From Verrucomicrobiota bacterium (GTDB taxonomy: Bacteria > Verrucomicrobiota > Verrucomicrobiia > Chthoniobacterales > UBA10450), in assembly GCA_003219435.1 (NCBI GenBank), contig QHOW01000091.1:1-34466 (forward strand): 34,466 bases of DNA. The letters are read 5' to 3'. Shown piece by piece: positions 3,369-29,527 of this stretch; the first letter of the stretch is position 1; each line of letters begins with the position of its first letter. The position numbers and the translations under genes are program-made. Under the pieces are notes generated by a model. That model was not told the origin of the DNA. It ran no database searches and saw only the letters and a program-made list of their open reading frames with translations.

Positions 3369-3639
3369 GGCGGCTCAACCGCAGCGAGTTTTGTTCGTCG
3401 GTTCGTTTTCCTAGGGTTGTGAACAGACAAAGATAACTGGTTTTTGGACCTCGAATCGGCAGTCGCGCCGCTGTCAGAATCCTTCGTTGAGCCGAGAGAA
3501 AGCTTTTGATTCAGACAATCATCGGTGATTGCGAGGGATAGAGAGAGATTTAGTGACGGTCGGGGTTGCGATAGCTTCCGGCGTAAAGCCTATTACGGGT
3601 TTCGCAGCTCCTAATTTGGAGCCGCTACCGATGAACGCG

Positions 3640-5358
3640 TCAGTGATTTGTTACACGATATATCATCACGTCCTCCTTAGCAATTTCGCTAGAGAGAAAC
3701 AAAGCCGAGCGGTGGTCGATCTGATTAGCAATCCTGGACAAAGTGATTAGATACCTGACCTGGTATTTCTTCAGAGTGGGCAAGGCATCCGGTGACCCGG
3801 CGATGAGCTGCTTCCACATCAGCGTCGCCGCTTCGACCCGCGGGGTGTAGGGCACGTACGGGTTTGAAAAATAAACTGACGAAGTGGCGACGACCTTTCG
3901 AGCGGCTGGAGCGACCACGGTCAGATCAAGATTATCGCCCCTGCTTAAGAAAACATCCTCGGGCTGGGTATGTGATAAGATCCAGCGATAGGCATCGATG
4001 CGGGCTGCTCGGTATCTTGCGCCGGCTAAAGATCTGTCGCAAGCCACCAAAAAATCCCAGCGCGAGCCGTAAGCGGGCAACACGAGCGCCAGGAACAAAA
4101 CAACGCTTGCCCAAATCAGGAGAGTTTCAATTTGAAAAGTGAGGTGGCTGCTGCCAGACGTCGCGGGAAAAAACGTCGACGCGATATGGCGAGACAGCCA
4201 CTGGCAAACAAATACCAGGCCAAAACCAAACAGGATGTTTTCTATCGCTTTGAAGTAGAAGAGAAAATGATAGGCAGGCACAAACATTAGGTGCAAGTGT
4301 GGCATGAGGTGGAAATACGAGATTAGCTGTTGGATGTAATTCAGGGCCAATTCCACACAACAAACAGCCAACCAAGGGAAAAGTAGGCTTCTTCGAGGCC
4401 GATTGTATCGCGCCAGGATCAGAGCGACGAGCCCCGTAGCGGCGATTACGGTGAACCAGGAGAGATTTTCTCGAGCAAAGCCACCAATGTTCGCCAACTT
4501 CAGCGATGAGTACATCCAGTTACTCGGCGCGGAATTCAGGATTCTGAGATGGTAGCGGCCAAGAATCGAAAACGTAAACGGCAGGCTGACAATGAATGCA
4601 ATAAGAATGATCAATCCCAGCCCTCCGACTTCCCGGGTAAAGCCAGTTGTTAGGCCACTTCTCCTTTGCCCAATCCAGCTCTTTACCGCCATGGTAACGA
4701 TAACCGCGCCAAGAATGAGAGCTGGGGCTGTATGCCCGAGAAACGTGATGCCGAGCAAAAGTCCAACGGCAAAGTACCACCACAGCCCTCGCGATTCGAG
4801 GGCCTTGGCGTAAACCAGTAAACTAAAGTAAAACAGCGCTTGGACGAAATTTTCACCGTACAATAACGGAGAATAAGACGCCGAAACGTAAGAAGGCGCA
4901 CCGGGTGGCATGATGGCAAAGAGAAATGCGGCTGTGCTGGCCAGCGCAATCCGGCGGTCAAACAGAAAGGCGACCAGCGCATAAAAAGCTATTGGGGCTA
5001 ACAAGTTGAGGTAAGCGCCACCGCGGGCAGTGAGAGTAGCTGGCCCAACACCGGTTAAGCGCGACACATCGGCGATGATGATGGAGAGGAGCGGGTTGTA
5101 CCAAATGGTTTCTCCCCGATACAGGTTATCTTCTCCGTAGCGATGATCGAGAATTGTTTGCGCCAGCCCGATATCACGGCATTGATCGACATCGATCGTC
5201 GCCACCAGATCGCCGGTGGCGCGAATGCCATAGAATAGTGCCACCGCACATAAACTCAGCAGCGCTAAGTCGAGAACGAGACTGGCTCGTAACCACAGGA
5301 GCCAGCGGAATAGATATTTTTTTTGCGTCACCGTGCAGCGCAAGAAACCTTTCGCCAA
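3640..5358 (-). CDS. Polytopic membrane protein, GT-C/ArnT-like glycosyltransferase (PMT superfamily-like)
   Basis: 572 aa, many hydrophobic segments; early acidic motif DVDQCRDIGLAQTIL in the first extracytoplasmic loop. Confidence 0.7.
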   Translation of the reverse strand: MAKGFLRCTVTQKKYLFRWLLWLRASLVLDLALLSLCAVALFYGIRATGDLVATIDVDQCRDIGLAQTILDHRYGEDNLYRGETIWYNPLLSIIIADVSRLTGVGPATLTARGGAYLNLLAPIAFYALVAFLFDRRIALASTAAFLFAIMPPGAPSYVSASYSPLLYGENFVQALFYFSLLVYAKALESRGLWWYFAVGLLLGITFLGHTAPALILGAVIVTMAVKSWIGQRRSGLTTGFTREVGGLGLIILIAFIVSLPFTFSILGRYHLRILNSAPSNWMYSSLKLANIGGFARENLSWFTVIAATGLVALILARYNRPRRSLLFPWLAVCCVELALNYIQQLISYFHLMPHLHLMFVPAYHFLFYFKAIENILFGFGLVFVCQWLSRHIASTFFPATSGSSHLTFQIETLLIWASVVLFLALVLPAYGSRWDFLVACDRSLAGARYRAARIDAYRWILSHTQPEDVFLSRGDNLDLTVVAPAARKVVATSSVYFSNPYVPYTPRVEAATLMWKQLIAGSPDALPTLKKYQVRYLITLSRIANQIDHRSALFLSSEIAKEDVMIYRVTNH

Positions 5359-17638: not shown

Positions 17639-18781
17639 TCAGGCTTCCTGGCAATGAAACGCGCGCACGGCGTCAATCACCTGGGCCTGTTCCGAACTGC
17701 TCATTCCGGTGAAAAATGCAAGACGCACCAGGCGATCTGCCAAATCTTCCGTGACGGGACAATCGCCCTGGCGTCCGCCAAACCGCAATCCCATCGGCGA
17801 CAAATGCAGCGGCAGATAATGAAACACAGCCAAAATTCCAAGTCCTGCAAGATGCGAGATCAACGCCTGCCGCGCTTCGAATGAGGGCATGATCAAATAA
17901 AACATGTGGTAGCTTTGATCGCATTCAGGGGGGACAACCGGTAGGCGAACACCGTTCGTTTTGGCCCAGGAAGCCAACTCGCGCGCGTAGGTTTGCCAGA
18001 TTTGACGCCGCATTGACTGAATCTGCTCGCGGTGTTCAAGCTGTGCGCAGAGGAAAGCCGCCAGCAGGTCTGAAGGCAGATAGCTCGATCCGACATCGAT
18101 CCAGGTATATTTGTCAATCTCGCCGCGGAAAAACCGGCTCCGATCGGTTCCCTTTTCCCGAAGAACTTCGGCCCGCTGATTAAATTGTTCGTCGTTGATC
18201 AGAAGGGCACCGCCTTCTCCGCACGAGAAATTCTTTGTCTCGTGAAAACTGAGAGCTGCGAGCGGCCCAAGCGTGCCGAGATAGTGTCCGCGGTATCTTC
18301 CATAAAGACCATGCGCGTTATCCTCGACCACTGCGATCTGATGTCGGTGTGCGATCGCCATGATCGTGTCCATTTCGCATCCGACACCTGCATAATGCAC
18401 AAGAAAAATCGCTTTTGTGTGCGCGGTAATGCGTTGCTCGATTTGGCTTTCATCAATGTTCAGCGTGTCCGCCCGAATATCCACGAAGACAGGCTTGGCA
18501 CCGCGTAAGACGAACGCATTTGTCGCAGAGGGAAACGTGAACGAGGGAATGATGACTTCGTCTCCGGGCCCGATGTTTAAGAGGAGCGCAGCCATTTCCA
18601 GCGCGTGCGTGCAGGACGTCGTCAGGAGCGCCTTCTGAATCCCAAGCGATTGTTCGAGGAGGAGGTGGCATTGCGCGGTGAAGCTGCCGTCGCCGGAAAA
18701 TTTCGGGGCCGCGATGGCGACGCGAATGTAATCAAGTTCATCTCCCGTCGCGTATGGTCGATTGAAAGGAATGCGGATCAT
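17639..18781 (-). CDS. wecE: DegT/DnrJ/EryC1 aminotransferase, WecE/RffA-like (dTDP-4-amino-4,6-dideoxygalactose transaminase type)
   Basis: IPFNRPYATGDELDYI...LLTTSCTHALEMAALLLNIGPGDEVIIPSFTFPSATNAFVLRGAKPVFVDIR...EDNAHGLYGRYRG...SFHETKNFSCGEGGALLIND. Confidence 0.92.
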   Translation of the reverse strand: MIRIPFNRPYATGDELDYIRVAIAAPKFSGDGSFTAQCHLLLEQSLGIQKALLTTSCTHALEMAALLLNIGPGDEVIIPSFTFPSATNAFVLRGAKPVFVDIRADTLNIDESQIEQRITAHTKAIFLVHYAGVGCEMDTIMAIAHRHQIAVVEDNAHGLYGRYRGHYLGTLGPLAALSFHETKNFSCGEGGALLINDEQFNQRAEVLREKGTDRSRFFRGEIDKYTWIDVGSSYLPSDLLAAFLCAQLEHREQIQSMRRQIWQTYARELASWAKTNGVRLPVVPPECDQSYHMFYLIMPSFEARQALISHLAGLGILAVFHYLPLHLSPMGLRFGGRQGDCPVTEDLADRLVRLAFFTGMSSSEQAQVIDAVRAFHCQEA

Positions 18782-18819: not shown

Positions 18820-19437
18820 TCACTTTTCGCATTCCAGAACGACAGTCACGTACGGGATGCGCATTGGTTTCGTGTCCACGGATGCTTTGACATTTCTAAA
18901 AACCTTCTCCGCAAGCTCGCGGTACTGCTGCTCGGTTCGGATATTCCGGCCCCGATCATGAGACATAATGTACTTGGAAAACGCGCCGTGGTTCGGGACC
19001 CAACATGGATCATGCGACACAAATCGGCCTCCATTCTTTAGCGCGTCATAAGCGAACTGAATACAATCCGCGGCATCCTCATCGTCCAGGTGATGTAAGA
19101 CACTGACTGCTGTCACAATATCGGCATTCTTAAATCGCAAGTCGCCGCGAAGGGAGTGTGTGTCGCCAACTACGAAAGTCCCCTTGCTGCCGTACGTGCG
19201 CTTGGCAGCAGCAATGTAATCGGGATTGATGTCGAATCCGACATACTGGACGTCCGGAAGGCACTGTAGAGCCTGCGCCGGCCCACACCCGATGTCGATC
19301 ACCTTGTCGCCGGCCTTGGCCCGAACGTGGTTCTGCACAATCCTGCGACGCCCCGCATTTCCTCCAACGGCAGCTTGAAACACGTTATATAGCAATGGGA
19401 CTTTCAACCAGCGCGATAATCCAGAGTCACTCTGCAT
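18820..19437 (-). CDS. Class I SAM-dependent methyltransferase
   Basis: DKVIDIGCGPAQALQCLPDVQYVGFDINPDYIAAAKRTYG...VVGDTHSLRGDLRFKNADIVTAVSVLHHLDDEDA. Confidence 0.9.
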   Translation of the reverse strand: MQSDSGLSRWLKVPLLYNVFQAAVGGNAGRRRIVQNHVRAKAGDKVIDIGCGPAQALQCLPDVQYVGFDINPDYIAAAKRTYGSKGTFVVGDTHSLRGDLRFKNADIVTAVSVLHHLDDEDAADCIQFAYDALKNGGRFVSHDPCWVPNHGAFSKYIMSHDRGRNIRTEQQYRELAEKVFRNVKASVDTKPMRIPYVTVVLECEK

Positions 19438-19669
19438 GTTGGGATCAATTCGCGTTGCTGCGTCTGGTTAAGTGTGCGCGTTTCATTTCGTTGTCAGGGC
19501 TGAAGCCACTTATGAAAGTAATGTCTTGCCCCGGAGATTCTTCAACCGAGTTTGTGCAGCGTGTGCTGGGCTGGATGATTGGTGACGTGTGCTGGCCCGA
19601 TGAGATATTCCGCGAAACCACGTGCGATGGCCATGCCTTCGAGGGTGAGAGCCGTCCTTGACCCACGCG

Positions 19670-19860
19670 TTGCGACAAATGCCAGATCAACCCTTGGCGA
19701 CGATCGAGCGACAGCAAGATTAAGTAAAACATGTGATAACTCTGCTCGCACTCGGGTGGAATCGTCGAAAGTCGCACCCCATTGTCCGTAGCCCAATCGC
19801 TTAATCCTCGCACGTAATTTTCCCAGACCTGTTGAAATGCCGATTGAATTTAGTCCCGAT
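19670..19860 (-). pseudogene. Fragment of a third WecE/DegT aminotransferase
   Basis: IQSAFQQVWENYVRGLSDWATDNGVRLSTIPPECEQSYHMFYLILLSLDRRQGLIWHL, matching IQSMRRQIWQTYARELASWAKTNGVRLPVVPPECDQSYHMFYLIMPSFEARQALISHL of the neighbour. Confidence 0.85.
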
Positions 19861-20469
19861 ATTATCGGCGCATATGCCGCGGGTATTCATCGATCTTGCT
19901 CCAAAGGAAGGAATGCTGCGAAACGGTTAGAAGAATACCACCCCATTGGCGCACTGCCCAGTACACTTGCGAGAAGGACTAATTCGTCATCCCCCATGTG
20001 TTCCAGTACGTCAAAAGCGCCGATCACATCAAACTGATTTTCGAAAGGTATCTGGCGCGCGTCCATTTGGAATAGATCTACACCAGGCACTCGATCGGCG
20101 GCCAGGCGCAAACCCACTGAGGAAACTTCGCCGCCCCCCAAGGTAAGCCGGCGCAGCGCTTTCCCGATACCGACCAGGACGAAATCGGTTCCGCAACCAA
20201 TTTCAAAAAAATTGTCGCGTCTGGAAAATAGTGTTCGAGGGCCCAGCAAAGCAAACGATTGCGGGAACGAAATCAGAAACTCCAGGGTTCCAGTTCGGCA
20301 AGTCTGCCGAAAGAACTCGCGTCGAATCCTTCGCTCTTTTCGGCCAGTTGTGGAGCGAAAGCCAAATGGCCGCCGAGCCATTTCGGTTCGTAAAGGCAAG
20401 ACGGACACTGCCAGGTCGCACCATCGAATATTTGCCGCAGTTACACCGAGTCTCATCAGAGCTTGTCAT
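19860..20469 (-). pseudogene. Multi-frameshifted SAM-dependent methyltransferase remnant
   Basis: FFEIGCGTDFVLVGI...AADRVPGVDLFQMDARQIPFENQFDVIGAFDVLEHMGDDELV; C-terminal QHSFLWSKIDEYPRHMRR* in another frame. Confidence 0.8.
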
Positions 20470-20488
20470 TAGTTCCCGTCTTCATCTT

Positions 20489-20600
20489 TAAGTCATCTCA
20501 CAAATACCGATCGCAGGGTTGTAGCCGCGCCTCTGTGAGGCGCGTGCGCACGGCACACAGCGCCGTGGCTACAGCAGCTTGGCATTTATGAGATGACTTA
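20489..20600. mobile_element. 112-bp MITE/REP-like element with 17-bp terminal inverted repeats
   Basis: TAAGTCATCTCACAAAT at left; right end is the inverse of TAAGTCATCTCATAAAT (16/17); interior TGTAGCC...GGCTACA stem enclosing GCGCCTC-TGT-GAGGCGC and CACGGC...GCCGTG hairpins. Confidence 0.8.
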
Positions 20601-20654: not shown

Positions 20655-21806
20655 TTAGCTTGCTTCCCATCTAAAATCCTTTAAGGCGGCTACAACTCGC
20701 ATCTGCTCCGCTTCAGTGAGGTCGTTATAGAATGGCAAGCGGACTAAGCGGTTGCTTACCTCTTCGGTTACGGGACAGTCACCCTTTTTCCCACCGAATT
20801 TCCGGCCCATGCGTGAGAAGTGGAGAGGCAGGTAATGAAAAACGCTACTGATTTCACGAGTGTTCAAATAAGCGATGAGTGCCTGACGCGCCTGAAGTGA
20901 AGGCAACACTAGGTAAAACATGTGGTACGGTTGCTCGCACTGCGATGGCACTGTTGGGATCTGCACACGGCGAGCGGCCGCCCAATCCCTGAGGTTCTCC
21001 TCGTAATACTTCCAAATCCGCTTCCGTTTTGACTGAATAATCTCGCGAGTTTCCAGTTGAGCGTAGAGGAAAGCCGCGAGAATATCCGACGGCAAGTAAC
21101 TCGAGCCGATGTCCAGCCAGGTATATTTGTCTACCTGGCCACGAAAAAAACGGCTGCGGTTGGTCCCCTTTTCCCGAACGATCTCGGCGCGCTCGATATA
21201 CTGAGGGTCGTTAATCAACAAAGCGCCGCCTTCGCCACAGGTAAAATTCTTACTTTCGTGAAAGCTCAACGTAGCTAGACAACCGAAAGTACCCAGATGC
21301 TTGCCCCTGTACTTTCCAAACAACCCGTGGGCGTTATCTTCGACTACGGGAACGCCGTGTCGCCCAGCCACCTCCAGAATGGTATCCATCTCGCATGCAA
21401 CGCCAGCGTAGTGGACTACCAAGATGGCCTTTGTCCGAGACGTAATTAGACAGTCCAGCAGTTTTTCGTCCAGATTCAGAGTGTCCCGCCTTATATCTAT
21501 GAAGACGGGCCGAGCGCCCCGCAGGACAAAGGCATTAACGGTGGAAACGAAGGTGAACGAAGGCGCAATCACCTCATCGCCCGGTTTGATGTCGAGGAGT
21601 AACGCCGCCATTTCGAGTGCGTGCGTACAAGACGTGGTGAGCAGTGCTTTGGGAGTGCCAAGCTCCTTCTCAAGCAGAGCATGGCATTTTTTGGTAAACG
21701 CACCGTCTCCAGAAATCTGGCAGTTAGCGATCGCTTGTTGAATAAACTCAAGCTCTCTTCCGGAGAAGTATGGGTGGTTGAAGGGAATGTTGGAGGGACG
21801 GCTCAC
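20655..21806 (-). CDS. wecE: DegT/DnrJ/EryC1 aminotransferase, WecE/RffA-like (second paralogue)
   Basis: IPFNHPYFSGRELEFIQQAIANCQISGDGAFTKKCHALLEKELGTPKALLTTSCTHALEMAALLLDIKPGDEVIAPSFTFVSTVNAF...SFHESKNFTCGEGGALLIND. Confidence 0.92.
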   Translation of the reverse strand: MSRPSNIPFNHPYFSGRELEFIQQAIANCQISGDGAFTKKCHALLEKELGTPKALLTTSCTHALEMAALLLDIKPGDEVIAPSFTFVSTVNAFVLRGARPVFIDIRRDTLNLDEKLLDCLITSRTKAILVVHYAGVACEMDTILEVAGRHGVPVVEDNAHGLFGKYRGKHLGTFGCLATLSFHESKNFTCGEGGALLINDPQYIERAEIVREKGTNRSRFFRGQVDKYTWLDIGSSYLPSDILAAFLYAQLETREIIQSKRKRIWKYYEENLRDWAAARRVQIPTVPSQCEQPYHMFYLVLPSLQARQALIAYLNTREISSVFHYLPLHFSRMGRKFGGKKGDCPVTEEVSNRLVRLPFYNDLTEAEQMRVVAALKDFRWEAS

Positions 21807-22106
21807 TCTGCAAGAAGTCCGACGACTGATATGTTTAATTTTATTGTGCTAGCTACCAATGATTCCATTTATCACCCGCCCAGCTCCCGGACCTTTCGCC
21901 AAGGTCACGATCTCGTGAAAAAGAATACGCTCAAGCCTGGTACGAGCACAAAGCAAAGCTGATGAAAGGACAGGCATAGCTTAACGCAAATCAGTTATTT
22001 GTCACCATCCCAGGGAAACTCTCCCAGAGGTTCAAAGATTCGACCTCTCTTCATCCACCGCATACGATGTTCTCACCGGAGTAGCCAGTTTGGGGTCTCA
22101 CATATC

Positions 22107-23033
22107 CTACCCCGGTGCAACTGAAGACACTTTTCGAAAAACGAAAATGTGCGTTGTGACCAGAGGCCAGCGAGTATTCCACGCCCTCCACCCCAGCTTG
22201 TTTACTAACTCCAGCGAAACCTGAATTAGACCGAGGATCCCGCCAAGACGACCCTGGGGAGCAGGACGAATCTCCACAATCTCAAATCCATGTCGCGCAA
22301 TCATCTGTTTTGTGCCTTCAATCGAGAAGAGCACCGTATGCCATGGCGCGGTAAGCGCCCCAGCCAGATCGGGCAAAGGTTTGCGCTTGTTGCCAAAACG
22401 AAAAAGATTGCCGACCAGCCTGAAGGTTGCCGCGGTTGGGTGCAGCGTTACGAGAAGCCCGTCATCTTTGAGCAGCCTGTGCACTGCCGACAAGACGGCG
22501 GCATGGTTAACCAAGTGTTCGAAAACAGCCGACATTGTGAGTGCCGAGACTTGACCTTCAAATTCTCTCAACGTGTTAAGATCGCCCTGTTGGATGGGTA
22601 AGCCACGCTGCTGGGCATACGCCACCTGATCCCGTGAGATCTCAACGCCCCGAGCGTCGAATCCCCGTTGAATCATCGCATTCACGAGATGACCCCAACC
22701 AGCGCCGAAATCAACGACCATGCCATTCACCCGGTAATCTGTCAGTACCTGAATAATGCTTGCACGGTATGTTCGTGAAACATTCCGCCACTTTTCTGGA
22801 TCCGAAAACTCCTTGGTCTGCTTGTACGCAACATATTCTGTTTGATAGGCTCGCCCCATCTCTGCTTCGTCCGGCATCGGAGAAAGTTGAATGGTCCCGC
22901 AAACCAAGCAGCGCATAAATGTATACGTTGAATAAGGACCGAAGAGTGTGAGTGGGCCTTGGCATACGATACAAGCCGTTGTTTGTGTCATCCGCGCCGC
23001 ACTGTAAATCTTTTTTCCCACTTTCAACTCCAC
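22107..23033 (-). CDS. SAM-dependent methyltransferase with N-terminal Cys4 zinc-binding motif
   Basis: CIVCQGPLTLFGPYSTYTFMRCLVCGTIQLSPMPDEAEM...VVDFGAGWGHLVNAMIQRGFDARGVEIS...HLVNHAAVLSAVHRLLKDDGLLVTLHP. Confidence 0.9.
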   Translation of the reverse strand: MELKVGKKIYSAARMTQTTACIVCQGPLTLFGPYSTYTFMRCLVCGTIQLSPMPDEAEMGRAYQTEYVAYKQTKEFSDPEKWRNVSRTYRASIIQVLTDYRVNGMVVDFGAGWGHLVNAMIQRGFDARGVEISRDQVAYAQQRGLPIQQGDLNTLREFEGQVSALTMSAVFEHLVNHAAVLSAVHRLLKDDGLLVTLHPTAATFRLVGNLFRFGNKRKPLPDLAGALTAPWHTVLFSIEGTKQMIARHGFEIVEIRPAPQGRLGGILGLIQVSLELVNKLGWRAWNTRWPLVTTHIFVFRKVSSVAPG

Positions 23034-23112
23034 GTTTCTTAACTCGTCTGCTTTCTCAAAAGGAATAACCGTTGTTCTCCAACCAGTCTGTCATGATGGC
23101 TAGCCGCCAGCA

Positions 23113-23619
23113 CTACAGCTCTATCTCGTCGCTTTTCTTGTCCCAAAACGTCACTCGCTGCGGAACGTACACTTCTCGTTCTTCTGTATCTTTCATGATT
23201 ACGGCCCCAGCGCCAATCAGCGTGCGCGGCGCGATCTTGATCGAGTTGCGCAACGTGGCGTTTACGCCGATGAAACAATATTCACCAACGTCCACGTGAC
23301 CCGAGACGACTATATGCGAAGCGAGAAACACGTGATCGTGGATCACAGAATCATGGGGATAGGCATAGCTCAGTTCGAACTTCGTCAGTGCCGGCATCCA
23401 ACAAAGAAAGGCGAGGAAACCGGCGAACAGTCCGCCGATTATCGAGGGGTTAAAAACTAAACGAAGCAAAAACAATGCTCTTTCCCGGAATGACCGTGGA
23501 AAGACGCCCGCTTTGGCCACCTGCCATTTCAGGATCAATTGCCCGCAAACTGTGAGAACGATTACGGCAAAGATGTGTACGAAGTCGAAAAGTGATTTGT
23601 GATTAATTGCCCGGTTCAC
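23113..23619 (-). CDS. Chimeric ORF: EmrE/ArnE-like membrane N-terminus fused to the C-terminal beta-helix of a PglD/NeuD-like acetyltransferase
   Basis: Residues 1-88 ...VLTVCGQLILKWQVAKAG...IGGLFAGFLAFLCWMPALTKFELSYAYP; residues 89-168 HDSVIHDHVFLASHIVVSGHVDVGEYCFIGVNATLRNSIKIAPRTLIGAGAVIMKD, paralogous to the end of 27361..28020. Confidence 0.8.
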   Translation of the reverse strand: MNRAINHKSLFDFVHIFAVIVLTVCGQLILKWQVAKAGVFPRSFRERALFLLRLVFNPSIIGGLFAGFLAFLCWMPALTKFELSYAYPHDSVIHDHVFLASHIVVSGHVDVGEYCFIGVNATLRNSIKIAPRTLIGAGAVIMKDTEEREVYVPQRVTFWDKKSDEIEL

Positions 23620-24774
23620 CTGTCCGTTTGTTGGGTGCAGTTTCTTTTTCTCTCTTTAGACAATTATATTATTCTTCTTTCTTCCTGTGAGGAATTCAAT
23701 AGCAATCATGTATCTTTGTTCATCAGAATCCAATCGGGCCAGGCTCGTTCGGCAGAGTTGTTGGCCGAGCGAGCGCCGCTGGCCCAATTTTACGGAGGAC
23801 TGGCGTCCTGGACAGCCGACAGATTGTTTGGCGAGCCTGGGGAGGAGGAGAACGGTCGAATCCGTGAGTTGCAGGAAAAAGACGAAATGAGCGACGACGA
23901 AATGAAATGGTTAAAAAAAGCGCGCCTTTTCGAGCTGCCACGCCGTACCTATGGCTGGATGGTCAGTCATGCTGCGGTCCCCTATGCGGAATGCTTGCGC
24001 GGCTCGCGGTATCGAGTTTATTTCAGCGCGCGCGATCGATACAATCGGTCCCGAACGGGATTTTTCGATTTCGATCTACAGCATCCGGAAAAAATTCTAA
24101 GTATCAGTAAGAACCCTATTTTAGACCTCGGAAGATTAGGAGCTTTTGACGATTCGGGTGCCATGCTTTCTTGGATCACAAATTACGAGAACAAGAAATA
24201 TTTTTACTATTTCGGATGGAACTTGGGCGTCACAGTTCCTTTCCGAAATGCCATCGGCCTTGCTGTCTTTCAAGGCGGAGGTCAAACGGCGCGCAAGGTC
24301 TCCGAGGGCCCTATTCTCGACAGAGACATCCACGACCCATATTTCGTTTCCAATCCCTGCGTGCTTATCGATGGCGGAATTTGGCGAATGTGGTACGTCT
24401 CCTACTGGTACCATATCCGTTATGCGGAATCCGCCGACGGAATCAACTGGAGAAGAACGGGAATCGTCTGCATTGATTTTATCACAAGAAACGAACATGC
24501 CATTTCAAGGCCTTGCGTCATAAAGGAAAACAACGGGTATAAAATGTGGTACTCCTATCGCGGAAACAATTATCGCATCGGTTATGCCGAATCCTCGGAT
24601 GGGCTGCACTGGACAAGAAAGGACAGCGAAGCCGGAATCCGTGTGTCTCGGTCCGGCTGGGATTCCAAAATGATCGAGTACCCTTTCGTGTTTGATCATC
24701 AGGGAAGCCGTTATCTTCTTTATAACGGTAATAACTACGGAGAGACCGGTGTCGGGCTGGCCCTTCTCGCATGA
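23599..24774 (+). CDS. Five-bladed beta-propeller glycoside-hydrolase-like protein (GH43/GH32/GH130-like fold); start uncertain
   Basis: Repeated blades RMWYVSYWYHIRYAESADGINWRRTG and KMWYSYRGNNYRIGYAESSDGLHWTRKD; possible true start near 23887 (MSDDEMKWLKKARLFELPRRTYGWMVSHAAVPYAE). Confidence 0.7.
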   Translation: MINCPVHLSVCWVQFLFLSLDNYIILLSSCEEFNSNHVSLFIRIQSGQARSAELLAERAPLAQFYGGLASWTADRLFGEPGEEENGRIRELQEKDEMSDDEMKWLKKARLFELPRRTYGWMVSHAAVPYAECLRGSRYRVYFSARDRYNRSRTGFFDFDLQHPEKILSISKNPILDLGRLGAFDDSGAMLSWITNYENKKYFYYFGWNLGVTVPFRNAIGLAVFQGGGQTARKVSEGPILDRDIHDPYFVSNPCVLIDGGIWRMWYVSYWYHIRYAESADGINWRRTGIVCIDFITRNEHAISRPCVIKENNGYKMWYSYRGNNYRIGYAESSDGLHWTRKDSEAGIRVSRSGWDSKMIEYPFVFDHQGSRYLLYNGNNYGETGVGLALLA

Positions 24775-25531
24775 TGATCCATACGATTACTCGCAAGGAC
24801 TTGTTGGATTTGGTGTATCGCCGCAAGGAAGAGTTCCTCGCATCGATTCGCCGGAGTTATGCGTACATCGTCCGATCTTATTACGGGCGAGAGAAGGTAT
24901 TGGCCTTCAATGAATTTCTTAAAAAAATACGCCACGCATCCGAACCGTCCTGGTACCCTTGTTTGGATGGGTGTCCTGATTACCACCGTATCAATGACGA
25001 GTATCCAAAATCTTATGTCCGGGCGAGGATGCATTCCTATTACTTTCATCGCTGGAATCCAAACAGGGGTGTTTTTCAGGACTTCAAGGAAGTTTTTGAA
25101 ATAAAAAATGTGCTGTCCGGGACAGACAAGGACGCTCATTATGACAATGTTCCTTCGGACGGTGTTATTTCACGCGTTGTGAGCCATCAATATCCGCGCG
25201 GCGGGGGTACTTAGCAGAGCATGTTGACCCGGTGAATCCTTTTTCGCTGATTCAAACCATCATCCAAGCGTCGGATCACGGCGTCGATTATCAGGAAGGG
25301 GGCCTGTACATCCGCGAGACGGAAACGTCGGAACCTATTTTCCTGGACGCTTACTATACAATGGGCGACATGATCATAGCTTCGCCCGACGTGCGGCATG
25401 CCGTGGCGCGGATCGATCCAAACATACCTCTGGATTGGTCTAAAGAAGATGGCCGTAGGATGATACTACCTGTCATCATCCGCTCCGATTACAACATGGA
25501 CCCCAAGACAAAGCCGAGGAGCGTCGGATGA
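24771..25531 (+). pseudogene. 2OG-Fe(II) dioxygenase-like protein split by a single-base frameshift in a G5 run
   Basis: ORF 24771..25214 (...HYDNVPSDGVISRVVSHQYPRGGG) continues in another frame as YLAEHVDPVNPFSLIQTIIQ...DYQEGGLYIRE...MGDMIIASPDVRHAVARIDP...RMILPVIIRSDY; HxD and distal H lie in the second half. Confidence 0.7.
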
Positions 25532-27213
25532 TCAGGCTAAGCATCGTCTCGACGCTCTACCAGTCGGAGTCTTACCTCGAGCAGTTCCATCGCCGGGTCG
25601 TCGCTGCAGCCGAGCAGATCACGCCGGACCTCGAGTTCGTGCTCGTCGACGACGGCTCGCCCGACGAGTCGGTGCGCGTGGCGCGCGGGTTGATCGCGCG
25701 CGACAACCGCGTTCGCTTGGTGCGGCTGTCGAGGAATTACGGCCACTTCCACGCGATCATGACAGGACTTTGTCATGCGCGAGGCGAGCTGATCTTCCTC
25801 ATAGACTCCGACCTCGAGGAGTCCCCGGAGGCGCTCGGCACGTTCTTCCAGCGGATGCAGCAGGCCAGCCACGATGACCCGATCGACGTCGTCTACGGTG
25901 TGCAGGCGCGCCGAAAAGGACGACTTCTCGAGCGTAGTTTCGGCGCGTTCTTCTACTCGCTCTTCAACCGTCTCTCGGGTGTGAAAGTCCCGCGCAATGC
26001 TCTCGTAGCGCGGTTGATGACTCGCCGATACGTAAACGCTCTGCTGCGTCACCGCGAACGCGAGTTGTTCATGCTCGGAGTGATGGCCCAGGTCGGATTC
26101 CGGCAGGAACCGGTTGTGGTCGAGAAATCCGACACGGCGCCAACGACCTACACGTTGCGGAAAAAGATCTCGTTGGCCTTGAAGTCGATGGCTGCCTTCA
26201 GCGACAAGCCACTGACCGCGATCTTTCTACTCGGTTTGGGAATCAGTTTTGTCGCCGCCCTTGGCATGATCTTCCTCTTTATCACCTCGGTCGTCGCCTC
26301 ATGGCACTACCTCGTCGGCTGGCCATCGCTCACGCTGCTCATCTCCTTCTTCGGCGGAATGATTCTGGTGTCGATCGGCACGGTCGGCTTCTACCTCGGT
26401 CGCGTGTTCGTGGAGGTGAAGGATCGTCCGGTGATCGTAATGCAGGTCGAAGAAACGGCCACGACAGGAACTAGCAGCCCCGATACTCTGACCGGAAGCG
26501 TGGGCGTGCCCCGACGAGCAATGCCCGAAACCATGCCGGATGACCATGTCAGCATCGTCACGCGATTCCTGCGGGTACTCGAGAGCAGGCTAGAAGTGCG
26601 CGGCGTGATCCACGTCGGAGCGCACCAGGGGCAGGAGGTCGACCAATATCTCGCGCATGGTTGCAAACGGATCGTGCTCGTGGAGCCGAATCCAGACGCG
26701 TGCCGCATCCTACGTGAGCGCTCCAAATCGCGACCGGAGGTACAAGTGATCGAGGCCGCCGCGCTCGACGAGTGCGGCACGGCGACGCTTCGAATCCACA
26801 CGAGCCGAACCGGCAGCACCGAGCCGGCGAGTGTGCTCGAGCTGAAGCGCTTCAAGGAGATCGTGCCTACGCTGGAAACGCCGAGAACTATTGAGGTGAA
26901 CGCGGATCGGCTCGACTCGCTGCTCGAGCGCTCCGGGATCGACAGCGCCGATTTCCAATTGCTGAATGTTGATGTTCAGGGTGCTGAGCTGCACGTATTA
27001 CGCGGGGCCGAGCGAACGCTCGCGTCGGTCGCGGCGGTACTCGTGGAAGTCCACGTCGTGGAGCTCTATAACGGCGGCGCGAGCGAGCGGGAGGTCGACG
27101 AGTTTCTGACAGAGCGCGGCTTCGAGCGTGCCGACGTCGCCTACCACGAGCTCTACGACGAGCGCGGCACGTTCCCGGCGTGGGCCGAAGCGCTGTACGT
27201 TCGCTCCCATTGA
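25528..27213 (+). CDS. Fusion: GT2 glycosyltransferase with two TM helices plus FkbM-family methyltransferase
   Basis: SIVSTLYQSESYLEQF...FVLVDDGSPDESVRVA...FLIDSDLEESPE; TMs TAIFLLGLGISFVAALGMIFLFITSV and LTLLISFFGGMILVSIGTVGFYLG; then GVIHVGAHQGQEVDQYLAHGCKRIVLVEPNPDACRIL...LLNVDVQGAELHVLRGAERTL. Confidence 0.93.
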   Translation: MIRLSIVSTLYQSESYLEQFHRRVVAAAEQITPDLEFVLVDDGSPDESVRVARGLIARDNRVRLVRLSRNYGHFHAIMTGLCHARGELIFLIDSDLEESPEALGTFFQRMQQASHDDPIDVVYGVQARRKGRLLERSFGAFFYSLFNRLSGVKVPRNALVARLMTRRYVNALLRHRERELFMLGVMAQVGFRQEPVVVEKSDTAPTTYTLRKKISLALKSMAAFSDKPLTAIFLLGLGISFVAALGMIFLFITSVVASWHYLVGWPSLTLLISFFGGMILVSIGTVGFYLGRVFVEVKDRPVIVMQVEETATTGTSSPDTLTGSVGVPRRAMPETMPDDHVSIVTRFLRVLESRLEVRGVIHVGAHQGQEVDQYLAHGCKRIVLVEPNPDACRILRERSKSRPEVQVIEAAALDECGTATLRIHTSRTGSTEPASVLELKRFKEIVPTLETPRTIEVNADRLDSLLERSGIDSADFQLLNVDVQGAELHVLRGAERTLASVAAVLVEVHVVELYNGGASEREVDEFLTERGFERADVAYHELYDERGTFPAWAEALYVRSH

Positions 27214-27360
27214 GCAGGACGTGATCGTCGAGTCGAGCTATATCCTGTGGAAAGGCTGCTTCGGCTGATCAGCTGTCCGACCGCGACAAAAACGGATGTC
27301 TTGCCGCGCGGATTCGTATCGGTTGTCAATGCAAACCCAGCGTTGGCCACTTCATTCCCG

Positions 27361-28020
27361 TTATAGCTCTATCTCAGAACTGCTCTTTGCAAACAATTTG
27401 GCTCTTTCCGGTAGATAAACTCCGCGCTCGACGGTGTCTTTCATGATTACTGCTCCCGCCCCGATCAGAGTCTCGCGAGCAATCGTAATAGAATCTCGCA
27501 GAGTCGCATTTACCCCTATGAAACAGTAAGGATGAATATGCACATGCCCGGAGACTACAATGTGAGAAGCAAGGAAGCAGTGGTCGTCAATCGTAGCGTC
27601 ATGGCCGATGTGATTGCCACTCCACAACGTGACATCATTACCGATGCGAACAAATGGTTGAATGGTGTTGTCCTCTAAGATGAAGCAGTTGTCGCCGACA
27701 GGATGGTCGGTGAGGAAGGAACATCGGCTACTGACGTAGCTAACCAGCTCATATCCCAGCTCCTTGGCCTTGTAGTACTTTTCCGCCCGCGTCCTGTTCA
27801 TCCGTGCATAGCTGAAGGCCACAAACATTTTATAATCTTGCGGTGAATAGAGCTTGGCGACCCCTTCGAATGCGACCATCGGTAGTCCAAGAAAAGACTC
27901 TCCTTTGAGATACTTTTGGTCAACCGTGAAGGCGGCGACCTGATGCTCGCTATCGCGCGTAAAGTAATAGTGAGCAAGGCGACCAATGTCGCCCGCTCCG
28001 AAAATTACCAGCCTCGCCAT
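27361..28020 (-). CDS. Sugar O-/N-acetyltransferase, PglD/NeuD-like
   Basis: MARLVIFGAGDIGRLAHYYFTRDSEHQVAAFTVD...GDNCFILEDNTIQPFVRIGNDVTLWSGNHIGHDATIDDHCFLASHIVVSGHV. Confidence 0.88.
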   Translation of the reverse strand: MARLVIFGAGDIGRLAHYYFTRDSEHQVAAFTVDQKYLKGESFLGLPMVAFEGVAKLYSPQDYKMFVAFSYARMNRTRAEKYYKAKELGYELVSYVSSRCSFLTDHPVGDNCFILEDNTIQPFVRIGNDVTLWSGNHIGHDATIDDHCFLASHIVVSGHVHIHPYCFIGVNATLRDSITIARETLIGAGAVIMKDTVERGVYLPERAKLFAKSSSEIEL

Positions 28021-28031
28021 AAGACTCTTTG

Positions 28032-28805
28032 CTACTGCTTTCTTACCAAGATGGTGAACTCGTAGAGCGGATAATCGTGAATCAAAGAAACGAACCGGGA
28101 GAACTTCGTTTTACAGTAGTCGAAAAAGAACAACGGATCCGCGTAGTACAGATCGGGGCGTAGAAATTCCGGGTCGGAATATTTCGTAAGGACATTGAAT
28201 GCGAAACCCCGTTTGCTTAGCCGGCTGATCGCCTCCAAGGTCCGCAACATGTAGCTCTCCCACTCAGTGGAAGACGCCTGCAACTTCACATTAAACATCC
28301 CGCTGGCCACGGTGTAATCGGCCTCGCTCAGATCCTGCTCTCTACTCACGAAAGTAACTTCTTGCATCCCGGCGTGTAGTTCGACCCCTTTGGCTATCAT
28401 CCGCGGAGAAATGTCAAATCCGCAATATTGAAACGCATATCCTTCGCCCTTCAAGTAATCGGCGAGGGCGCCATAACCGCAGCCATAATCGTTGATCGTG
28501 AATGGTTGGCTGTGGTCCGTGAGCTTCAGAAGTTGGACGAATCTCAAACGTTGAGAATCTGGCGAATTCCAGTCCACCCCGCACGCCGTCGCTCCATGAA
28601 ATTCAATCTTTTCGCTGTAATATCTCTCGACGTCGCCGAGGATCTTAGCGTCGTTCATCCGCCTTTTGTTGTTGTCGCTGTTCAAAGTGTGCACCGAGCA
28701 ACTCTCGGTTACCAGGACGGAAGGAAGTTTCTTCGTTTCGCAGACTTCTCTAATAATAGCGTAACGTCTTTGTTTCACCCCGACGAATATTTTGAGAGGT
28801 AGCAT
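28032..28805 (-). CDS. Class I SAM-dependent methyltransferase; true start may be MNDAKIL at 28658
   Basis: TINDYGCGYGALADYLKGEGYAFQYCGFDISPRMIAKGVELHAG...YTVASGMFNVK. Confidence 0.88.
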   Translation of the reverse strand: MLPLKIFVGVKQRRYAIIREVCETKKLPSVLVTESCSVHTLNSDNNKRRMNDAKILGDVERYYSEKIEFHGATACGVDWNSPDSQRLRFVQLLKLTDHSQPFTINDYGCGYGALADYLKGEGYAFQYCGFDISPRMIAKGVELHAGMQEVTFVSREQDLSEADYTVASGMFNVKLQASSTEWESYMLRTLEAISRLSKRGFAFNVLTKYSDPEFLRPDLYYADPLFFFDYCKTKFSRFVSLIHDYPLYEFTILVRKQ

Positions 28806-28834
28806 AAAGCGTGGTAACGATTGAAAGGTCCACG

Positions 28835-29527
28835 TTAGAAACTCTTCATATACCTGGTGGCGCTGAGGCCTTCATTGAAAATAAGGTCGATGATGCTAAC
28901 GCGTGGCTCAAAAGGAGGATAGAGCTGCCTGTACTCCGGATAGCCGGAGTAATCCATGTACGAAACGGCGATACCTTCGTTTCTAAATAATTCTTCATCG
29001 AGGTAAGCTTTTGCCGAAGGCCCCGAGAGGTACGCCGTCGCACCTGCTTGCTGGCATAAATGAACCAATCTTCCGGTTTTGTCCCCAATCAAATTGTAAT
29101 CCATCGACCATGATACAGTCGTTCTTATCCCAAGGATTCGGCAAATTGCGACGATGAAACGATGGTTTATGTGCGAGAGGAGTTGGTCGTCCGTTCGCAA
29201 ATACAACTCTTCAAACAACTCTTTCTGCATTGCGAAATATTTCGCCCTCGAGTAGCTATGCACGATGGTCGCCCAATGTCTCCGCTGCCAGGTCGGATCA
29301 CTGATCCTTGTGTCTTTTATCTTTTGAAAGTACTTACCCTTTACTGCGACCGGTACCGTTAGCCACAGCGGCCCGCTCGAGGTCTTGATGACGTTCCTGT
29401 TTCGCCAGTCTCTAATCGTATACTGCACGTCGTCGTAGAGAATAAATTCATCTACAGAATTGATTAAATCAAAGTACCCTCGCCATGGGATATAATTCGA
29501 TTGAACGACAGCTATCGTTTTGCGCAT
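28835..29527 (-). CDS. WbqC-like family protein
   Basis: [60 protein letters not shown]. Confidence 0.93.

Follow-up and report, generated by a model that had tools for sequence, protein, structure and literature searches.

Why should a short run of plus-strand genes lie between two acetyltransferase ends that are both encoded on the minus strand? The question is raised by positions 23,113 to 28,020 of a 34,466-nucleotide stretch of Verrucomicrobiota DNA (hereafter the window), a complete contig from a draft genome (2.73 Mb, 317 contigs, 85% complete). The initial annotation described the run as a foreign cassette, exchanged at duplicated, conserved acetyltransferase ends. From homology, gene order, a frameshift, a gene fusion and the positions of breakpoints, we arrive at a different explanation, which we consider reasonably probable. 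The region from 17.6 to 29.5 kb appears to be a mosaic in which a gene set that recurs across phyla (WbqC > ArnC-like GT2 > methyltransferase > NeuD-type acetyltransferase > propeller > ArnE/F-like flippase > WecE) has been rearranged and has partly decayed; the intact set would serve to load a 4-amino-4,6-dideoxyhexose onto undecaprenyl phosphate.

Reading from 23.1 to 28.0 kb, one meets first a chimeric minus-strand ORF, then the propeller gene, an oxygenase-type gene that is broken and a fusion of GT2 with FkbM, and last an acetyltransferase gene that is intact. One gene of the set is broken here and another is fused. As the initial annotation noted, the plus-strand genes are tightly packed, with overlaps of 4 bp at both 24771/24774 and 25528/25531. 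All members of the gene set, including the propeller, NeuD-type acetyltransferase, WbqC and WecE, are found within 20655-29527, but in shuffled order. Instead of the canonical single-strand arrangement, the propeller, oxygenase and GT2-FkbM genes occupy the plus strand, and the remainder lie on the minus strand around them. On that strand are a WbqC family protein (28835-29527; PF08889, 4.6e-78), the SAM methyltransferase MT2 (28032-28805; 62% at the amino acid level to the locus L081), and the intact NeuD/PglB/VioB-family sugar acetyltransferase (27361-28020; TIGR03570, 164.9 bits against a cut-off of 160.8). These are followed by a truncated transporter, the SAM-dependent methyltransferase MT1 (22107-23033; PF13489, 1.2e-15) and a dTDP-4-amino-4,6-dideoxygalactose transaminase, which is the second WecE copy (20655-21806). 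The latter exceeds both of its NCBIfam cut-offs (PRK11706, 571.6 versus 375; TIGR02379, 536.3 versus 434.85). No Rfam families were found between 20 and 30 kb of the window.

The gene set was delineated from a propeller profile scan of 84,980 species genomes, which recovered more than 580 relatives. Loci were chosen by the propeller alone, and neighbouring genes were labelled by BLAST to proteins of the window and its relatives. Because only the best 80 matches were kept (79 of them scorable), the resulting frequencies describe near relatives of this propeller and not the whole family. Even so restricted, the best 80 span Omnitrophota, Pseudomonadota, cyanobacteria, Nitrospirota, Bacteroidota, Chloroflexi and archaea. 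Within 5 kb of the propeller, 64 of the 79 loci carry the acetyltransferase and 64 carry WbqC, with the ArnC-like GT2 present in 46, MT2 in 43 and WecE in 41. The common order is WbqC>GT2>MT>AcT>propeller>(ArnE/F-like)>WecE, and an unbroken string from WbqC through GT2, MT2 and the acetyltransferase to the propeller occurs in 16 of the 79 loci. The same arrangement is present on two publicly annotated plasmids, while none of the phage records encode the propeller. When the literature was searched for the whole gene set, only the EPS273 locus emerged. These neighbourhoods support the view that the set comprises recurrent, largely uncharacterised glycan-modification genes.

One sign of rearrangement in the window is the chimeric ORF (23113-23619, minus strand). 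Its first part is half of an ArnE/F-like (EamA/SMR) transporter, the N-terminal half (23357-23619; 86% DNA identity to positions 3547-3816 of locus L017); fused to this in frame are the final 80 residues of an acetyltransferase of the NeuD type (23113-23356). The 5-bp word TCATG at the fusion point is common to the window, to the same-genus genome G064 and to the intact acetyltransferase, and the fusion therefore fits joining by microhomology. The transporter is truncated and fused to an acetyltransferase remnant, probably by this route. A search of the 85%-complete genome yielded no other strong copy of the transporter. With the one recovered copy broken, the pathway may be inactive in this organism.

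Upstream of the transporter fragment, a divergent intergenic region and leader are also common to G064 (23620-23877; 75% DNA identity to L017 3971-4179). The transporter half and divergent promoter thus form a host-like island of 520 bp (23357-23877) that is bordered on either side by foreign DNA. G064 has an intact transporter, which matches the EamA Pfam family but scores 63.2 bits against the ArnF-like cut-off of 99, and so does not reach the equivalog. Across its divergent promoter, G064 carries ACP and SDR genes (loci L017/L013), whereas the window has the propeller. The propeller, oxygenase and GT2-FkbM run is oriented against the other genes and lies behind the divergent promoter belonging to a resident ArnE/F-like gene, a site at which gene content differs between the two genomes. 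In another genome, G043, one end holds WecE and the transporter, and the other a WbqC 70% identical to that of the window. The middle of G043 differs from that of the window and starts with the same ACP and SDR genes that G064 has. From these layouts, it is plausible that loci in this family keep their ends and vary in the middle. The initial annotation had suggested comparing strains for alternative cassettes between acetyltransferase ends; alternative middles do exist, but in the three genomes they are bounded by the transporter and WecE on one side and by WbqC on the other.

Further left, on the minus strand, lie remnants and additional intact genes. At 19666-20475, the C-terminal part of a WecE gene (19666-19863) runs into the N-terminal part of a methyltransferase gene (19863-20475); these two remnants have 89% and 84.6% DNA identity to G064, relative to which approximately 1 kb is missing at the junction at 19863. 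These are followed by a class I SAM methyltransferase (18820-19437; PF08241), whose relatives, at 35-41% amino acid identity, are placed in loci L111 and L125 with the ArnE/F-like gene on one side and WecE on the other. The outermost gene is the first WecE-like sugar aminotransferase copy, of the DegT/DnrJ/EryC1 family (17639-18781; PF01041, 293 bits), which is 77% identical at the amino acid level to a G064 gene. Between the methyltransferase remnant and the second WecE copy lies a 112-bp palindromic element (20489-20600) with 20-nt terminal inverted repeats that are 90% matched. Its core is matched in all 35 genomes of the genus.

The oxygenase provides evidence of decay. Initially annotated as a single dioxygenase ORF, it has a one-base frameshift near 25200-25207 that leaves an N-terminal piece (24771-25214, plus strand; 54% at the amino acid level to an intact relative in locus L083) and a C-terminal piece that has no start of its own (25202-25531, plus strand; 56% to L083). 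The frame is lost in GGCGGGGG, just ahead of the HxD motif, and the pieces meet at residues 144-146. No Pfam or PDB sequence match was found for the protein. Its tentative assignment to the 2OG-oxygenase class is based on a conserved HxD...H...R pattern (metal triad plus distal Arg), which by alignment is kept in four relatives and in the second piece of this frameshifted gene. That second piece carries HG>HA and GRW>GRR at sites that the four relatives keep, which argues against mere sequencing error and for real decay. Ribosomal frameshifting was set aside, as GGC GGG GGT does not resemble, by eye, the usual slippery heptamer, and the second half has changes at conserved sites.

No homologue of the oxygenase was found at E <= 1e-12 in the other 387 Verrucomicrobiota genomes searched. 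Two relatives found without the propeller query, in G020 and on a Pseudoroseomonas plasmid, adjoin both WecE and a propeller, while a third and more distant relative adjoins WecE and has no propeller. In Paraglaciecola chathamensis (L133:7600-7610), the same oxygenase codons at which the window gene breaks hold a tract of 11 G, also out of frame. With 5 G versus 11 G in L133, the window lacks the long in-frame homopolymer of a phase-variable gene. Runs of at least eight G or C are scarce, with only ten in 1.46 Mb of loci, and possible phase variation of the Paraglaciecola oxygenase is a lead that comes from one isolate.

The third plus-strand gene encodes, as the initial annotation recognised, an ArnC-like GT2 and an FkbM methyltransferase in one ORF (25528-27213, plus strand; PF00535, 6.7e-24; PF05050, 1.4e-18). 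The FkbM part passes its model (TIGR01444, 78 versus a cut-off of 37.7), whereas the GT2 part falls below the ArnC model PRK10714 (109 bits versus 529). No such fusion was seen in the 80 propeller loci, and no plasmid match covered 80% of it. Its GC3 is 0.72-0.79, compared with 0.52-0.68 in other genes of the window. Given this composition, and given the absence of the oxygenase from the 387 other Verrucomicrobiota genomes, both genes look imported. To that extent, the foreign look noted in the initial annotation is supported. A neighbourhood search for the triad, as the initial annotation had proposed, found the propeller and oxygenase together with a GT2 in L083, and with a separate FkbM gene in L133 and L136; in L083, GT2 and FkbM are likewise separate genes. 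The trio's components thus recur together elsewhere, in keeping with the suggested role as a candidate uncharacterised glycan-modification module, although not in the fused form.

How, then, should the two acetyltransferase ends be understood? Exchange of a cassette by homologous recombination between duplicated 3′ ends is very improbable. Both tails are real and share an orientation, as originally observed, with 71% identity over 80 amino acids, and G064 and G043 do carry other middles at a comparable site. At the DNA level, however, the tails share only ~69% identity over 190 bp, with a longest exact match of 14 bp, and are therefore too diverged to represent a recent duplication or a good substrate for recombination. 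The left tail is almost as close to an Omnitrophota protein (67.5%, L081) as to its neighbour, and so the two copies are old relatives. Moreover, the breakpoints at 23357 and 23877 flank the 520-bp island and lie away from the acetyltransferase ends. Gene order also argues against exchange. The acetyltransferase is directly upstream of the propeller, on the same strand and with a gap of -20 to 136 bp, in 37 of the 79 loci, and is usually present there as a single copy. Within the window's family, only four further genomes have a strong acetyltransferase orthologue; all are among the five with a propeller orthologue, and in each the gene is just upstream of the propeller (in G043, with one intervening gene). 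Judged from these neighbourhoods, the intact acetyltransferase is a cluster member and a normal neighbour of the propeller, not a flank. Relatives therefore keep the same genes without flanking acetyltransferase copies, the very situation that the initial annotation had named as counting against its own reading. More generally, a reading made without tools can mistake a normal cluster member for a duplicated flank. A different objection is that the metagenomic contig is an assembly chimera, in which the glycan clusters of two strains were joined to give the fused transporter/acetyltransferase ORF and the remnants. The fragmented, incomplete assembly and the meeting of several half-genes at sharp junctions would fit this, but we regard it as unlikely. 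No second strong copy of the transporter or the acetyltransferase was found in the assembly, the shared 5-bp word is short for an assembler mis-join, and the conserved-site changes in the oxygenase point to real decay.

The propeller itself invites another alternative, namely that it is a catabolic glycosidase or phosphorylase found in surface-glycan islands by chance. The gene, described in the initial annotation as beta-propeller hydrolase-like, starts at 23902 and not at 23599; aligned relatives begin at 23902, and the residues before it derive from upstream DNA. As delimited (23902-24774, plus strand), its AlphaFold2 model is confident (pLDDT 94.5) and shows a five-bladed fold, for which Foldseek returns GH130/GH43-like structures (9fj8, TM 0.78; 5mt2, E 1.2e-11). 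This closeness of fold, with TM scores of 0.72-0.79 to GH130 mannoside phosphorylases and hydrolases, is what a catabolic role has in its favour. The window protein nevertheless shares only 16% identity with these enzymes and scores 16.1 on PF04041 (GH130), below the gathering score of 26; it passes no curated family cut-off, although 36 of 47 propeller relatives match PF04041 at E <= 0.01. Its N-terminus, MKWLKK, has no apparent signal peptide by eye. Across phyla, the gene often overlaps or abuts the acetyltransferase gene, and its neighbours are biosynthetic rather than uptake genes. We therefore give little credence to chance residence of a catabolic enzyme, and think that the propeller acts in biosynthesis. 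A propeller match at E <= 0.001 is present in 7 of the 83 genomes of the window's family: its own genome, the five with real orthologues, and G064, in which the match is a fragmentary one to the leader.

If the region is a decayed version of the cross-phylum set, what would the intact set do? It probably builds an unusual amino sugar and loads it onto a membrane lipid for use in surface glycans. Each enzymatic step and the substrate are predicted from the established chemistry of these families. WecE would make a dTDP-4-amino-4,6-dideoxyhexose, which the acetyltransferase, possibly with WbqC, would N-acylate and the methyltransferases would O-methylate. The ArnC-like GT2 would then transfer the sugar to undecaprenyl phosphate, and the ArnE/F-like protein would flip the lipid-linked product so that it could be passed on to a surface glycan. 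The propeller and oxygenase may act on the sugar or on its acyl group. We speculate, more tentatively, that this is an undescribed lipid-linked 4-amino-sugar pathway spread across phyla, in which the GH130-fold propeller and WbqC would be obligate biosynthetic components and an optional oxygenase would be switched by a G-tract in some lineages.

Several known systems share parts of this gene set. The Arn (Ara4N) pathway of lipid A modification similarly combines an aminotransferase, an ArnC-like transferase to undecaprenyl phosphate and an ArnE/F-like flippase, as found among the window's relatives. It differs in that the set described here has a WecE-type aminotransferase, a NeuD-type acetyltransferase, WbqC, the propeller and methyltransferases, and does not reach the Arn equivalog cut-offs; neither ArnA nor ArnD was matched among the genes scanned. 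The viosamine island of Pseudomonas syringae, which modifies flagellin with mVio, encodes a 4-amino-4,6-dideoxyhexose aminotransferase, a VioB-type acetyltransferase and a methyltransferase (PMC3927599). The same kinds of genes occur here, with ACP and SDR genes in G064 and G043, but the viosamine islands as described lack the propeller, WbqC, ArnC-like GT2 and ArnE/F-like gene. The EPS273 exopolysaccharide locus of Pseudomonas stutzeri 273 has WbqC, GT2 and WecE-like genes, as does our set, and its WbqC is termed uncharacterised (PMC5532660). Unlike our set, its gene table includes no acetyltransferase-propeller pair.

In the predicted pathway, four proteins that are still poorly understood (the propeller, WbqC, the oxygenase and the GT2-FkbM fusion) come together around a single product that can be tested. 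The set is widespread, from Omnitrophota and cyanobacteria to Vibrio, Bacteroidota and archaea, yet WbqC is still called uncharacterised and the propeller is named a hypothetical protein in both annotated plasmids with the canonical order. For WbqC, the AlphaFold model is confident (pLDDT 95.3), and its best PDB fold match is a weak one to a cytidylyltransferase (a nucleotidyltransferase; E 0.023); no sequence relative was found in the PDB. N-acetylglycyl amino sugars occur in O-antigens, which prompted the idea that WbqC transfers glycyl groups, but the literature searched gave no support for such a role. Among propeller relatives, 10 of 47 have weak similarity to GINT1_N, which in plant glucosamine inositolphosphorylceramide transferase forms the propeller domain. 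Paired propeller genes lie side by side in three Mesorhizobium loci (L099, L104 and L107) and on a Rhizobium leguminosarum plasmid (L180 9001-10919). The gene after the propeller in other Verrucomicrobia of this family encodes a PhyH-type dioxygenase (L016:7944-9712, L012:4969-7062), replacing the oxygenase type found in the window.
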